This document shows, in pieces, positions 4,962 through 22,170 of a DNA stretch of 22,170 nt. Source of the DNA: a virus. The stretch is from positions 1 to 22,170 of IMG/VR virus record IMGVR_UViG_3300025102_000330. The stretch is one strand, 5' to 3'. The notes under the pieces were generated by a model. The model ran no database searches. It was given only the letters and a program-made list of their open reading frames with translations, and was not told the DNA's origin. Numbering within the stretch: the first letter of the stretch is position 1; each line of letters opens with the position of its first letter. The translations under genes and the position numbers were made by a program.

Positions 4962-7409
4962 TTAATCTTCGACCTTAATTGCAGTTATACCTTGATTTCC
5001 ACTCTTTGCAAGACTTACTCCTGCTCTCAATTTAGCTAATTTTTCGTTTTGATCCATTTTATCTTCAGTTAATTGTCTTGCTTGAAGTAATTTTGCTCTA
5101 TCAAGGTCCATTTTTTGCTCTCCTTCGTCTTTTTTACGTTCATTTTCCATTGCACGAAGGTCAACTTCTCTAGATTTAAGTTTTAGAAGTGGGTCAGAGT
5201 CAAATTGTGATGTAATTTTCTTCTCTTCTTCCATAAAATCACCCATTAGCTCAGAAATCAACACTGCTTTTCTCGCTTCCATGTCCATAGATATCTTTTG
5301 TAACTGTCCTTGTACCTGTGGATTCTGTTGTGCCATCTGTTGCATCTGTGGAATTTGTTTAATTGTCTCTGCAAACTCTAATTCTACCTGTTCTTGAGCC
5401 ATTAAACTAATATGCTCTAAACAATTTTTTTCTATTGCAGCCATAACAGGCGGATTGTTTCTTACCATGTTAGTTGCCATGAAATTTAAGTGAGCAGTCA
5501 TGTGTGCTCTGTGATCTTGTCCTCTAAAAGCTTGAAAAGGTTTGCCTGCAAGTGCATCAATGTGTTCTAATGCTGGATCTTTTGGTGCAACAGGTGCTGG
5601 CGGGGGTAAAATTTTATCAATATCTTTTATACCAAGTGCTTCGTACATTTTTCTGTACGCATTGTACAAATTATGAATTTTAGGGTTAGATGTCGCAAGT
5701 TGTAATTCTGTTTGTGCAATTGTAATTCTTTGTGACATAGAAAAAATGTTTGGATCTGCAACAGGTAAAATATCTACTCTGTCATCAAAGTCCATTTGTT
5801 TAACTTCTCTTTTACCGCCAACTACATCAAAAGGATAAACTGGTGGTAAATATGTTTTAAATAAACTTGCAAGTAATCTAAATTCTGATCTCATTGATGT
5901 GTATAATCTTTTGTGTATTGCAGACATTACACGTGAACCTCTCTCAAGAAGTGCAACTGTAGTTCCAACTGCAGCAGCTTGATTACCGTCTCCAACTTGC
6001 ATGTCAGCTATTGCAGCAAATCTTTGTCCTGCTTGAACTACAATACCCATCAACTGTAATAATGTTGGTGATGGTTCTTTGTAAGGTAGCATCATAAATG
6101 AATCTCTAATATTACCACCCGGTGCATCTACATCTTTAAATTCACCTGGTTGTATTGGTGATGCTTCGTCTCTAACTCTAACACCTCTTTGTTTAAATCC
6201 TGCTGGCAAGTTTGATAGTGTACCTGCATCCAACAATTGACGGAGAGCAACGGTTGCAGTTCTGCTCAATCCGCCAATCATATGGATCAATCCAAATCCG
6301 TAGAACCCTAGTCCTGGCAGAAATTTAAAGTGGACAAAATATGGTATTCTATTTTTTCTTGGATCGTCAGGATTAAAGTTCCTTCTAATAGAAAGAACTT
6401 TTCGCGAACCTTCATCTACAGTTACAATGTATGGGAGCTTGATTCCTGTAAACTCTCCGTTCGCGTCCTTATCTTCAAAACCTTCTAAATCTAAATTAAC
6501 ATGGCACTCTAACAAAGTATAAACTGTTTCTGGTCTGCCTGTTTTTTTAGTTCCTTCTAGTTCTCTTTCTTTTGACTCAACTTCATTTTTAATTATAGAC
6601 GGTGCATTTAATTCTACATCAGAGTAAAAACCACCTACTTGTTGCTTTCGTAAATCATTTTCTGACATTTTAATAACATGCATAATTGCTTCTGCATCTT
6701 CTAAAGATGTAGCAGAATAAGGTACAACTAAATCATCGGCAGGTACAAATTTGGATACTGCTCTTCCTAATAAATCATCGTAATAAACTTTTTTAAATGT
6801 AGATCCTGCAAGAGGTAAATGAAATAACATTTGATCGAACTCTGGTTCGTACTCCGACATCTTCTCCATAAGTTCGTAATTCATGTATTCTCTTACACGA
6901 GTCGCCTGTGCTTCTTTTTGTGGATCGCTGTTGCCAACGATTTGAGTTCTAATTGGTCCTTCTGCTGGTAATAATTCTTTGTAAGCCCCGGCTTGAAACT
7001 GTGTTACAGCTTCTGCTAGTACAGGGTGCGTGGCCCCCGAAGCGCCTTGAAAAGGCTCTGTTCTGTTTTCGTATTTAAATCCTAAAAGGTCTAAACCTTC
7101 TGTATAAGATCTTTCCCAATCTTTTCTAGATGCTCTGTAATCTGTATAGTTTTGAAATAATTCTAAACCGATTGGTTCTAGAATATCATCTGGTAATAAT
7201 TCTGCTAAATTATCAAAGTGCGTTGGTTGCCCTTCGATGTTTACTTTGCTTGGATCAAAGTTTAATTCCACACCACCATCATCAGTTGGATTAATTTCAA
7301 CTGGTGGTTTGTTTGCTTCTTCTGCTTTTTCTATTTCAACTTGTTGGTCGGGTCCTTCTATTTTTACAGAGGTTCCCAACTCTGAAAGAGTCTTGTCAAT
7401 ATCTGCCAT
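4962..7409 (-). CDS. Portal protein
   Basis: An 815-aa protein. After an acidic 90-residue start comes a portal-like core: ENRTEPFQGASGATHPVLAE, a wing-like region, then YFVHFKFLPGLGFYGFGLIH and GGLSRTATVALRQLLDAGTL, and AAVGTTVALLERGSRVMSAI. The C-terminal 200 residues are Gln- and Met-rich with long coiled coils. Twelve copies of a portal form the ring at one capsid vertex through which terminase drives DNA. The length and long helical C-terminus suggest a podovirus-type (P22-like) portal. It sits downstream of TerL, separated by two large unknown genes. The portal call is firm; the subfamily is a guess. Confidence 0.85.
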   Translation of the reverse strand: MADIDKTLSELGTSVKIEGPDQQVEIEKAEEANKPPVEINPTDDGGVELNFDPSKVNIEGQPTHFDNLAELLPDDILEPIGLELFQNYTDYRASRKDWERSYTEGLDLLGFKYENRTEPFQGASGATHPVLAEAVTQFQAGAYKELLPAEGPIRTQIVGNSDPQKEAQATRVREYMNYELMEKMSEYEPEFDQMLFHLPLAGSTFKKVYYDDLLGRAVSKFVPADDLVVPYSATSLEDAEAIMHVIKMSENDLRKQQVGGFYSDVELNAPSIIKNEVESKERELEGTKKTGRPETVYTLLECHVNLDLEGFEDKDANGEFTGIKLPYIVTVDEGSRKVLSIRRNFNPDDPRKNRIPYFVHFKFLPGLGFYGFGLIHMIGGLSRTATVALRQLLDAGTLSNLPAGFKQRGVRVRDEASPIQPGEFKDVDAPGGNIRDSFMMLPYKEPSPTLLQLMGIVVQAGQRFAAIADMQVGDGNQAAAVGTTVALLERGSRVMSAIHKRLYTSMRSEFRLLASLFKTYLPPVYPFDVVGGKREVKQMDFDDRVDILPVADPNIFSMSQRITIAQTELQLATSNPKIHNLYNAYRKMYEALGIKDIDKILPPPAPVAPKDPALEHIDALAGKPFQAFRGQDHRAHMTAHLNFMATNMVRNNPPVMAAIEKNCLEHISLMAQEQVELEFAETIKQIPQMQQMAQQNPQVQGQLQKISMDMEARKAVLISELMGDFMEEEKKITSQFDSDPLLKLKSREVDLRAMENERKKDEGEQKMDLDRAKLLQARQLTEDKMDQNEKLAKLRAGVSLAKSGNQGITAIKVED

Positions 7410-17538: not shown

Positions 17539-17719
17539 AAAGTACGATCACATCATACACAGAATTCACGATCAGTGGTGCCGGGACAATGGCTATCCAA
17601 GCCGCAAGCTTCAAGCTCCAAGCTGCGTAAGCTTCAAGCTGCAAGCTTCAAGCCCCAAGCATAAAGGTTCAAGCTCCAAGCCACAAGCTGCAAGCTCACG
17701 AACCACGGACCCTTCATAA
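17525..17719 (+). CDS. 64-aa frame with heptamer-coded tail
   Basis: The frame begins MPAHRKYDHIIHRIHDQWCR, a His/Arg/Asp-rich helical stretch, but after residue 25 it is encoded by heptamer block 3 and reads as a Lys, Leu, Gln, Ala, Ser, Pro repeat. It overlaps the gene before it, which supports translation, and also overlaps the minus-strand nuclease gene by 109 bases. Either the N-terminal 25 residues are the functional part with a tail added by repeat growth, or the frame is decayed. Confidence 0.35.
   Translation: MPAHRKYDHIIHRIHDQWCRDNGYPSRKLQAPSCVSFKLQASSPKHKGSSSKPQAASSRTTDPS
17598..17697 (+). repeat. CAAGCNN heptamer repeat, block 3 (largest)
   Basis: About twelve units of CAAGCNN in 100 bases (CAAGCCG, CAAGCTT, CAAGCTC, CAAGCTG, a break, CAAGCTG, CAAGCTT, CAAGCCC, a break, CAAGCTC, CAAGCCA, CAAGCTG, CAAGCTC). 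The block lies at the convergent, overlapping 3' ends of the plus-strand 64-aa frame and the minus-strand nuclease, and encodes the C-terminal tails of both. Confidence 0.8.
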
Positions 17720-18680: not shown

Positions 18681-19163
18681 ATGGGATTACCAAAAAGATT
18701 AACAGAAATGCAAAGACGGTTCGCAGAATTTTTAGTATTCGGCGGTCCTGATGGACCATGCACAAAAACAGAAGCAGCTACACTTGCTGGATACAGTAAA
18801 GACAATGCTAGACATGAGGGCTCGTCTCTCACCAACCCAAAACATAGTCCACTCGTTGTAAAATATATAGGTGAATTAAGAGAAGAAAGATTAAAAAAAT
18901 ATGAAGTTAATTATGACGCTCATGTGGCAGAACTTGGGCGAATTAAAGACGCCGCTTTGAAGAAGGGCGCGTGGAGTGCAGCTGTGAATGCGGAAACAAA
19001 CAGAGGCAAAGCAGCAGGATTATATATAGACCGCAAAATAATAAAAACAGGAAAACTAGAGGACCTATCAGAACAAGAGCTAAAAGCAAAAATGAAACAA
19101 ATTTTAGACGACTACTCACAAATTATAGATGTCACTCCTGATCCTAAAAAAATCACAGAGTAA
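18681..19163 (+). CDS. terS: Terminase small subunit
   Basis: A 160-aa protein with the Terminase_2-type plan: LTEMQRRFAEFLVFGGPDGP, then a helix-turn-helix region TKTEAATLAGYSKDNARHEG with SLTNPKHSPLVVKYI, then a helical oligomerisation part (AVNAETNRGKAAGLYIDRK) and an acidic C-terminal tail. TerS rings recognise phage DNA and hand it to TerL. It lies on the opposite strand from TerL and 4.8 kb away, which is unusual. Start ATG at 18681 has no ribosome site and coincides with the predicted transcript start. The C-terminal 11 bases overlap the minus-strand gene tail to tail. Confidence 0.8.
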   Translation: MGLPKRLTEMQRRFAEFLVFGGPDGPCTKTEAATLAGYSKDNARHEGSSLTNPKHSPLVVKYIGELREERLKKYEVNYDAHVAELGRIKDAALKKGAWSAAVNAETNRGKAAGLYIDRKIIKTGKLEDLSEQELKAKMKQILDDYSQIIDVTPDPKKITE

Positions 19164-19434
19164 TCTTCTCCATTGATAAGATACAACCAATAGGAAATAT
19201 ATTGGTGTCACTAAATACTTCATCGTCTTGATCGTAAGAACTAAATGTAGTCAAATACTTTTTAGTTTTCTTATACACATACGCTTGTGTAATCATTTTA
19301 CAAATAGGTAACTTCTCCATCTCATCTTTATTCTTGTGCCCCGCATCGCCGGTGATGTCGAGCCACTTGATTGTATAGAAGTAATACTTCTTTTTATTAA
19401 TAATTGCGTGTTTGTATCTCTTTTTCCTTTTCAT
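19153..19434 (-). CDS. 93-aa basic hypothetical protein
   Basis: A 93-aa protein starting with a strongly basic run (MKRKKRYKHAIINKKKYYFY), then IKWLDITGDAGHKNKDEMEK and a strand-rich end with SYDQDDEVF and FPIGCILSMEKITL. It may form a small beta-rich domain. The ribosome site AAAGGA is part of the first copy of a repeated GGACATTTTA element, which ends one base before or within the ATG. The gene is therefore likely to be regulated through that array. I recall similar sequences from marine phages but no function. Confidence 0.55.
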   Translation of the reverse strand: MKRKKRYKHAIINKKKYYFYTIKWLDITGDAGHKNKDEMEKLPICKMITQAYVYKKTKKYLTTFSSYDQDDEVFSDTNIFPIGCILSMEKITL

Positions 19435-19573
19435 AAAATGTCCTTTTTGATCGTAAAATGTCCTCTATATAGTGTTTTCTACCATTAAAATGTCCTTTTT
19501 CACACCTAAAATGTCCCTTACGAGCGATTATCTTGACGTCTTTATTGACTTTTTTGACATAATGGACATTTTA
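19434..19573. promoter_or_regulatory. Five-copy GGACATTTTA array upstream of the 93-aa gene
   Basis: The 10-mer TAAAATGTCC (GGACATTTTA on the minus strand) occurs at 19434, 19454, 19486 and 19507 in the same direction, and inverted at 19564-19573. The start-to-start distances 20, 32 and 21 are close to two, three and two helical turns, so bound proteins would face one side. Copy 1 overlaps the ribosome site and start codon. This looks like an operator array or iteron-type origin. The rest of the gap (19574-19629) is A/T-rich with no gene. Confidence 0.75.
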
Positions 19574-19629
19574 CATCGTTAAAATTTTTTTGAAAAATAA
19601 AAAATTTATGAAAATAATTACTATAGTGT

Positions 19630-19851
19630 CTAGTTTACTGCCACATTTACGCCATAAACTCGCTGCAATATAGCCATCTTTGACTCTGCGTCTTCTATTT
19701 TGCCTAACAACTTATCGATCTCACCTGTAATATTTATATGCTCTGGTATGATCCTAGTGTCAGTCATTAAGATGGTTATCTTTGCACTGGCGTCAGCAAT
19801 GTCTGCTTCATATCTTTTCATCAAAGCGTCGTATACAACTTTATGAGCCAT
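19630..19851 (-). CDS. 73-aa coiled-coil hypothetical protein
   Basis: A 73-aa, mostly helical protein (MAHKVVYDALMKRYEADIAD, and EIDKLLGKIEDAESKMAILQ near the end) with heptad-like spacing and a short break at TRIIPEHINITG. It has a near-perfect AAGGAGG ribosome site 6 bases before the ATG, inside the end of the exonuclease gene, so it is made together with it. It could be an exonuclease partner; there is no direct evidence. Confidence 0.6.
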   Translation of the reverse strand: MAHKVVYDALMKRYEADIADASAKITILMTDTRIIPEHINITGEIDKLLGKIEDAESKMAILQRVYGVNVAVN

Positions 19852-20608
19852 TTGCTACCTCCTTTTCATCCCTTATTAATTCATGATAATAATCTAACCG
19901 TTTTAAAAAATCGTGTTTTGCCTTACGTAAATTAAGCCCGTCAATCTTGAATTCTTGGTAATATAGGTCAGGAGTACATACCATAATTACACATTGTTCA
20001 ATGTTAGAGCCGTGTACTTGATCATGTGCCATGGCGTATGCTGCGGCCTGCAACTTATAGTCTCCAATCCACTCTTCTCTCTTTGGTCTGTTGGCCTGTT
20101 TAAAATCTATTACAGTTTCCTTGTCGTTGTGTATTCCAACTAAGTCTGTAGAGCCTGCGTAAAGGCCTGGATAGTATAATGTAACCTCCGACCCAAAATA
20201 TTCACTCACGGGCGCTAGACCCACCTCTATGACCTTCTCAGCCATACGTTTCGTCTCTTGTCCAAGTTCAGTTAGATCTTCATATCCTTTACCCAATACA
20301 TAGTTCTCCAGATACTTGTGCATTGATGTTCCACGTGTAGCACTAGCAACTTTTATTCTCTCTGCTTCAGCCTTACCTTTCTTCTTAATCCAATCTTTTA
20401 GGAACGTGTCATCTTTAGTCTTACCCAAGATAGTTGTGACAGACGGTAGTCTGTATCCCGCAACATCATAGTTCCGTGCGCCGTGGTCCAGGAACCGTGT
20501 ACCTTGAACATAGGTGTATTTGTTATTTAGCTTTATCATTTCTCTTTCGATGTCGGCCCATGTACCAATTACTTGGTTCATAGTCCCAACGCTTACCGTG
20601 ATGTCCAC
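19841..20608 (-). CDS. RecB/Cas4-like PD-(D/E)XK exonuclease
   Basis: A protein of up to 255 aa with the full RecB-type nuclease set: RGTSMHKYLE (His97), GSEVTLY (Glu141), GSTDLVG (Asp155), VIDFKQA (Asp168-x-Lys170) and the motif QAAAYA (Gln187, Tyr191). These bind metal and cut DNA ends; phage members act in recombination or in degrading host DNA. The GTG at 20608 has no ribosome site; ATG at 20581 or 20539 are alternatives and the conserved part begins near NKYTYVQGTRFLDHG (residue 29). It lies between an oxygenase and a small coiled-coil protein. Confidence 0.8.
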   Translation of the reverse strand: MDITVSVGTMNQVIGTWADIEREMIKLNNKYTYVQGTRFLDHGARNYDVAGYRLPSVTTILGKTKDDTFLKDWIKKKGKAEAERIKVASATRGTSMHKYLENYVLGKGYEDLTELGQETKRMAEKVIEVGLAPVSEYFGSEVTLYYPGLYAGSTDLVGIHNDKETVIDFKQANRPKREEWIGDYKLQAAAYAMAHDQVHGSNIEQCVIMVCTPDLYYQEFKIDGLNLRKAKHDFLKRLDYYHELIRDEKEVANGS

Positions 20609-21433: not shown

Positions 21434-21731
21434 TCTCTCCTTTAAAAAATCTTCTACAGTGTTCTAAGTATTCTTCTTCACTTACATGGTCAGCAAACAA
21501 ACCCAACATCGCTTTGTATGCACCACCGCTTTTATAATCATCGCTGATTGTTTTATCTTTAAATACATTCATATCGTCAGTGGGAACACTACGTCTAGCA
21601 CTCTCCCCACTAACGCCGAGCGTCGTCGCTACCTTTTCAGGTCGTTGCTTAGGTCCAGAGGAACGCAATTCTGCAGGACTTGTACCCCTATCTCGGTCAC
21701 TTTTAAATTTTATTTTATGCTTGATACTCAT
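21417..21731 (-). CDS. 104-aa hypothetical protein
   Basis: A 104-aa hydrophilic protein: the first half is basic and Ser/Arg/Pro-rich, probably disordered (SIKHKIKFKSDRDRGTSPAE), and the second half helical and acidic (YKAMLGLFADHVSEEEYLEH). It starts in an ATGA overlap with the resolvase-like nuclease gene, so the two are made together. No motif or family recognised. Confidence 0.5.
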   Translation of the reverse strand: MSIKHKIKFKSDRDRGTSPAELRSSGPKQRPEKVATTLGVSGESARRSVPTDDMNVFKDKTISDDYKSGGAYKAMLGLFADHVSEEEYLEHCRRFFKGENENNT

Positions 21732-22066
21732 ATTTTTTGTGTTTGTGTTCTTCGTTTTAAATGATTCTTATCTTCTTTGTAGAAATAACATTCTTTTTTG
21801 TCTGCGTCGACGTATAATATTTTTACATCTAATTTTTTCTGTAATGGTGTACGACATCTATTAATCTTCCATCCATCTCGTTTTCTTCTACACACAGATT
21901 TAACATCTACTTTTATTATTTCATTGTCTTTGTTGACAACAACCATGTCAATACAACCTTGTTGACTTACATTACTAAACACATGATATCCATTTTTTAA
22001 AAAATATATTTGTGCCAAATTTTCTGCTTCTCTACCTTTCACATGTTTATCTAATATAAATTTCAT
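21728..22066 (-). CDS. PD-(D/E)XK nuclease, Holliday-junction-resolvase-like
   Basis: A 112-aa protein beginning MKFILDKHVKGREAENLAQI. Glu in the GREAE motif near residue 12, GCIDMVVV (Asp) and IIKVDVKSV (Asp-x-Lys) give the E...D...(D/E)xK pattern of archaeal Hjc-like resolvases and related endonucleases. The tail is basic. The start at 22066 is preferred over 22102: GGGAG lies 4-5 bases upstream and the ATG overlaps the stop of the lipoprotein-like frame (ATGA). It would cut branched DNA in recombination or packaging; this is family inference. Confidence 0.7.
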   Translation of the reverse strand: MKFILDKHVKGREAENLAQIYFLKNGYHVFSNVSQQGCIDMVVVNKDNEIIKVDVKSVCRRKRDGWKINRCRTPLQKKLDVKILYVDADKKECYFYKEDKNHLKRRTQTQKI

Positions 22067-22170
22067 ATATCTCCCACCTTTGTTATTGCTCTTATCACCC
22101 ATTTAAACGGATTACTTGCGTCAGTCTTTTTGTGTTGACTGCAACTCATCAGGAATAACAGGATCATAAT
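22063..22170 (-). CDS. Possible small lipoprotein (N-terminus at or beyond the right edge)
   Basis: The frame runs from at least the ATG at 22167 to a TGA at 22063: MILLFLMSCSQHKKTDASNP, then FKWVIRAITKVGDI. LMSC is a lipobox-like motif after a hydrophobic stretch, so the Cys could be lipidated in the outer membrane, as in spanin-type lysis lipoproteins. The basic N-terminal residues of a signal peptide are missing, so the true start is probably upstream of the window. Its stop overlaps the nuclease start by ATGA. Confidence 0.45.
   Translation of the reverse strand: MMILLFLMSCSQHKKTDASNPFKWVIRAITKVGDI

Follow-up and report, generated by a model that had tools for sequence, protein, structure and literature searches.

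A helically phased repeat array in a pelagiphage fragment is a likely replication origin whose repeat word tends to follow the primase/helicase module

What role does a short word play when it is repeated several times in one intergenic space, close to the genes of a phage terminase? The window, by which we mean the whole stretch of DNA analyzed here, is a linear virus contig of 22,170 bases. Its terminase large subunit is 73% identical to that of 023Pt_psg01, 71% to HTVC027P and 63% to HTVC023P, and by these identities the window is therefore a fragment of a HTVC023P/HTVC027P-type pelagiphage (SAR11-type, marine). Along the minus strand, the exonuclease gene is followed by the 73-aa gene, an AT-rich tract, the repeat array and the 93-aa gene, after which comes the terminase small subunit gene (terS) on the opposite strand (Table 1).

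Table 1. Features of the array locus, in positions of the window
Feature	Position	Strand	Remark
Copy 1 of GGACATTTTA	19434..19443	-	exact match; overlaps the 93-aa gene's ribosome site and the A of its ATG
Copy 2 of GGACATTTTA	19454..19463	-	exact match
Copy 3 of GGACATTTTA	19486..19495	-	exact match
Copy 4 of GGACATTTTA	19507..19516	-	exact match
Copy 5 of GGACATTTTA, inverted	19564..19573	+	exact match; adjoins the AT-rich tract
A+T tract (90%), candidate DNA-unwinding element	19580..19629		top 0.09% of the record's 50-bp windows
93-aa gene, downstream of the array	19153..19434	-	predicted small beta-barrel
73-aa gene, other side of the array	19630..19851	-	phrog_1811
Exonuclease gene	19841..20608	-	phrog_298
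Terminase small subunit gene (terS), convergent with the 93-aa gene	18681..19163	+	tested and rejected as array reader

The word GGACATTTTA occurs in five exact copies inside 140 bp, four direct (minus strand) and one inverted (plus strand), against 0.084 copies expected in the window under a first-order Markov model of both strands. The array is the sole such cluster of any mixed-composition 10-mer in the window; the 8-mer GGACATTT has no occurrence there outside the array, and a one-mismatch match to GGACATTTTA lies at 6663, within a coding region. In the relatives G007 and G008 the array is unique too, save for one isolated extra copy. Start to start, the direct copies are 20, 32 and 21 bp apart, which places them on one helical face within ~35 degrees at 10.5 bp per turn; the inverted copy is out of phase with them, and is found at about the same place in L015, L030 and L044. 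A preliminary description of this DNA had listed the five copies and their common face, and had considered that the word might prove to be scattered at random or its spacing lost in relatives. All five copies are real and the phasing holds; the word is confined to the array, and the spacing is retained in relatives having the same word. Elsewhere in the window, AGCTTCAAGC is present in three copies in ~50 bp (17606-17653) within a 122-aa ORF region, and other phage contigs (L135 6438-6600, L121 547-634) have GGACATTTTA, in other contexts, within tandem arrays whose period is 18 or 26 bp.

We consider the array to be, with fair probability, the iteron cluster of a phage replication origin, with a winged helix of the phage primase as its likeliest reader. 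Several short direct repeats at regular spacing and an adjacent AT-rich unwinding region are the marks of an iteron origin, and both are present in the window. At the arrays of other word classes the AT-rich tracts are often extreme, but not always, and in some classes they are weak. A switch of GC skew at the array, suggested earlier as a further sign of an origin, is absent: the skew merely follows gene strand. The literature searched holds no described origin for these phages, which does not prove that none exists.

In many of the contigs that have the 93-aa gene, a repeat array occupies the same position, upstream of that gene facing terS, and the word varies by lineage: GGACATTTTA, TTGGACACTTT, GGTACAATT, GATACAA, TGCTACAAT, TGTAGAAA, TTGCGACCCC, TTGCGACACC, AAGTTCCATG and TGCGACCCC/ACC. 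The word is TGGCACACTT in 023Pt_psg01 and GTTACAATG in HTVC027P, where the array precedes gp28 at about 14.8 kb, while HTVC023P has a repeat array of CTAGGAAA directly upstream of terS. No clear array is seen in L027-L029, which have another gene context, or in L049-L053, L060, L061, L067 and L068, where the gene immediately upstream is a different one. Spacings often seen are 20, 21, 31 and 32 for GGACATTTT, 20, 22 and 32 for GGACACTTT, and 9, 10, 18 and 27 for GGTACAA, counted over all fetched loci pooled, some of them from unrelated phages. A second element, ATACCAA, is common to several word classes and absent from the window's class; AATACCAAC, likewise a second element, stands once or twice in the array region of several word classes, upstream of the 93-aa gene in L405, L404 and L403.

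Which genes does the word follow? On long contigs, an AEP-TOTE primase (PF22548), a UvrD-like helicase and PolA are encoded upstream of the array, the primase ~10 kb away; the primase has a fold match to the CRISPR-associated Prim-Pol, and a search of PDB sequences with its profile gave no match. In the phage G017, a backbone like that of the window (exonuclease 88%) goes with the word TTGCGACACC, with a primase that is unrelated, and with a helicase and PolA that differ as well. The same word is found in the distant phage G072, whose primase is 46% identical to that of G017. A scan for primases of the G017 type retrieved L630 (primase 43% identical to G017 and 61% to G072), which displays TGCGAC words on a third backbone, like that of G013 and G048, themselves carrying the standard primase and GGACATTTT. 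Contigs were sorted by helicase or primase type, and TGCGAC words accompany the alternative primase/helicase in all 6 contigs, one of them found through the primase itself, as opposed to 2 of the 26 with the standard type (Fisher p = 3e-5 without phylogenetic correction; many of the contigs compared were fetched by word searches, and they are not phylogenetically independent). The two exceptions, with a standard module and TGCGAC words, are G047 (L409, the intergenic region before terS) and L549. Judged from these comparisons, the word follows the replication module rather than the neighboring genes, and tends to change with the DNA-copying enzymes.

Several potential readers were rejected. 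The 93-aa, 73-aa and exonuclease proteins are up to 99%, 93% and 90% identical, respectively, across different words; adjacent proteins are excluded because they remain nearly unchanged while the word changes. A small HTH-like protein of 94-155 aa differs among phages with the same word. The LAGLIDADG protein encoded upstream in G007 has no match in L001, the near-identical twin of the window, where a PD-(D/E)XK-like protein takes that slot. The slot itself holds the PD-(D/E)XK-like protein in the window (21728-22102) and the LAGLIDADG protein in G007 (reverse strand 25926-26267) and many relatives, which suggests an exchangeable nuclease slot. PolA does not decide the word, since L228 pairs an alternative PolA with the standard helicase and standard word. 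The stretch concerned (L228 831-2876) also indicates that PolA is exchangeable separately from the primase/helicase pair.

Within the module, the C-terminal part of the primase is the strongest candidate. Among 377 residue windows from 25 gene families, primase residues 447-486 rank first in tracking the word (partial r 0.62; identity 70% in same-word pairs as against 43%), in a systematic screen that came after the C-terminal differences had been spotted by eye. For that window alone, none of 400 label shuffles reached this value, and the maximum over all 377 windows reached it in 25% of shuffles (family-wise p = 0.25); the tracking is therefore nominal only, a suggestive result that lacks significance over the whole screen. 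The AlphaFold2 model of the primase (mean pLDDT 80, about 85-91 in the C-terminal part) places a helix at 428-439, a helix at 445-455 and strands at 459-465 and 468-476, which together form a predicted winged helix; the word-tracking window consists of its recognition helix (445-455) and its wing (459-476). G098 shares with G051 both the C-terminal helix of the primase and a TTGGACA-type word, and looks like a natural recombinant. By contrast, G011 has the GGACATTTTA word, yet only about half of its primase C-terminal residues match G007. Whole-primase identity was discarded as a word tracker (82% in G047 with another word, 65% in G011 with the same word), and tryptophan 451, a single residue shared by the GGACATTTTA phages, was judged too weak on its own. 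The primase gene of the window's own phage lies outside both the record and its twin.

These observations can be assembled into a mechanism. Several copies of an initiator would bind the helically aligned words and melt the adjoining AT-rich tract, where the primase, helicase and PolA of the phage would load. The reader is probably the archaeo-eukaryotic (AEP) primase acting through its predicted C-terminal winged helix, though it may be the helicase, or the two together; failing the primase, the primase-helicase pair might act as a unit. The gain of another primase/helicase by a lineage, or a change in the winged helix of its primase, would alter the words and leave the neighboring genes as they were. 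We infer binding, melting and origin use at the array, and a primase of this kind in the window's own phage. A more far-reaching version, which we put forward tentatively and hold to be rather less probable, is that the HTVC023P-type AEP primase is itself the origin initiator, that its fast-changing winged helix rewrites the iterons, and that ~10 specificity classes are swapped as primase/helicase cassettes together with matching origins.

The preliminary description had left the choice between a replication origin with iterons and a phage operator array. The former is favored by where the array lies, by its uniqueness, by the AT-rich tract and by the association of the word with the replication module. 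An operator array appears unlikely to us; in it, a repressor or activator of the phage would act on the words at the promoter or promoters of the 93-aa gene, and divergence of regulator specificity would make the words differ, as in phage immunity regions. The array is intergenic and directly upstream of a gene, with copy 1 overlapping the gene start; a -10-like TATATA is seen by eye between copies 3 and 2; and in phages an origin often overlaps a promoter. A scan for promoters gave weak results, however, with 7 consensus matches against 4.0 expected and none on the TATATA element, and an AT-rich tract is not predicted by a repressor. The link found is with the primase/helicase: no regulator gene tracking the word emerged among the families shared by enough phages, a set that may leave out rare or distant genes. 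Nor is there any sign that these phages are temperate, and HTVC027P has been described as a lytic phage (PMC12753301).

The overlap of copy 1 with the ribosome site of the 93-aa gene (AAAAAGGACATTTTATG), reported earlier, is borne out, the last A of the 10-mer being the first letter of the ATG. Phages with GGACAT and GGACAC words also have the word fused to the start codon, which the other word classes do not; because most classes lack such a fusion, the proposed joint control of transcription and translation through this copy is unsupported as the main role. The 93-aa protein is conserved in several phage types, including HTVC026P, HTVC111P and HTVC202P, and a fold search against the PDB gave no confident match (best E 0.11). 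In HTVC026P, a DnaD-type protein is encoded two genes upstream of the homolog.

It is very improbable that the array is a packaging site (pac/cos) read by the terminase small subunit, the product of the neighboring terS. terS lies only a few hundred bases off, and the HTVC023P array directly precedes it. Such a site calls for a TerS DNA-binding domain that varies with the site sequence, and this is not what we find: the N-terminal helix-turn-helix is nearly identical across four different words (L002, L010, L059 and L030), and TerS is 97-98% identical between G047, with its TGCGAC word, and G007 and G018, with GGACATTTTA, which largely contradicts this reading. Least credible of all is that the copies are a product of chance, or a duplicated ribosome-site leader with no role in binding: copies 1 and 3 do resemble a ribosome site followed by ATG, but the flanks between copies are unrelated, the helical spacing is kept in same-word relatives, an inverted copy is kept as well, and unrelated words occupy the same site. 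A site that is conserved while its word is replaced contradicts this reading.

With a replication origin as the preferred reading, a conserved site bearing interchangeable words linked to primase type offers a direct test of an AEP primase as origin initiator. It could explain the exchange of replication modules between such phages and, by inference, the avoidance of cross-recognition in co-infection.

Known systems offer partial likenesses. In lambdoid phages the O protein acts at an origin that combines ori iterons with an AT-rich region (PMC7466680), resembling the proposed origin in having a phage-encoded initiator on several iterons beside an AT-rich region; the lambda iterons lie inside the O gene, whereas those described here are intergenic, at a distance of ~10 kb from the primase gene, and the analysis identified no O-like protein. 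Intergenic repeats also form the origin of the phage satellite PLE (PMC7145576), as proposed here, but with a RepA_N initiator, of which none is seen in these phages. SaPI Rep and SCCmec Cch2 read origin iterons with their C-terminal domains (PMC7581432), similar to the reading of short origin repeats by the C-terminal domain of a replication protein that we propose. In those elements a replicative helicase does the reading, at an origin that directly follows the helicase gene, whereas our candidate is a distant AEP primase, which matches the fold of SaPIBov1 Rep weakly (E 0.86). A further likeness is to the AEP primases with C-terminal winged helices, PolpTN2 and PrimQH, proposed to read the origin (PMC5862659). 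They belong to a different AEP family from the AEP-TOTE-like (PF22548) pelagiphage proteins, and whereas that proposal came from structure prediction, the winged helix described here tends to vary with the repeat word from phage to phage.
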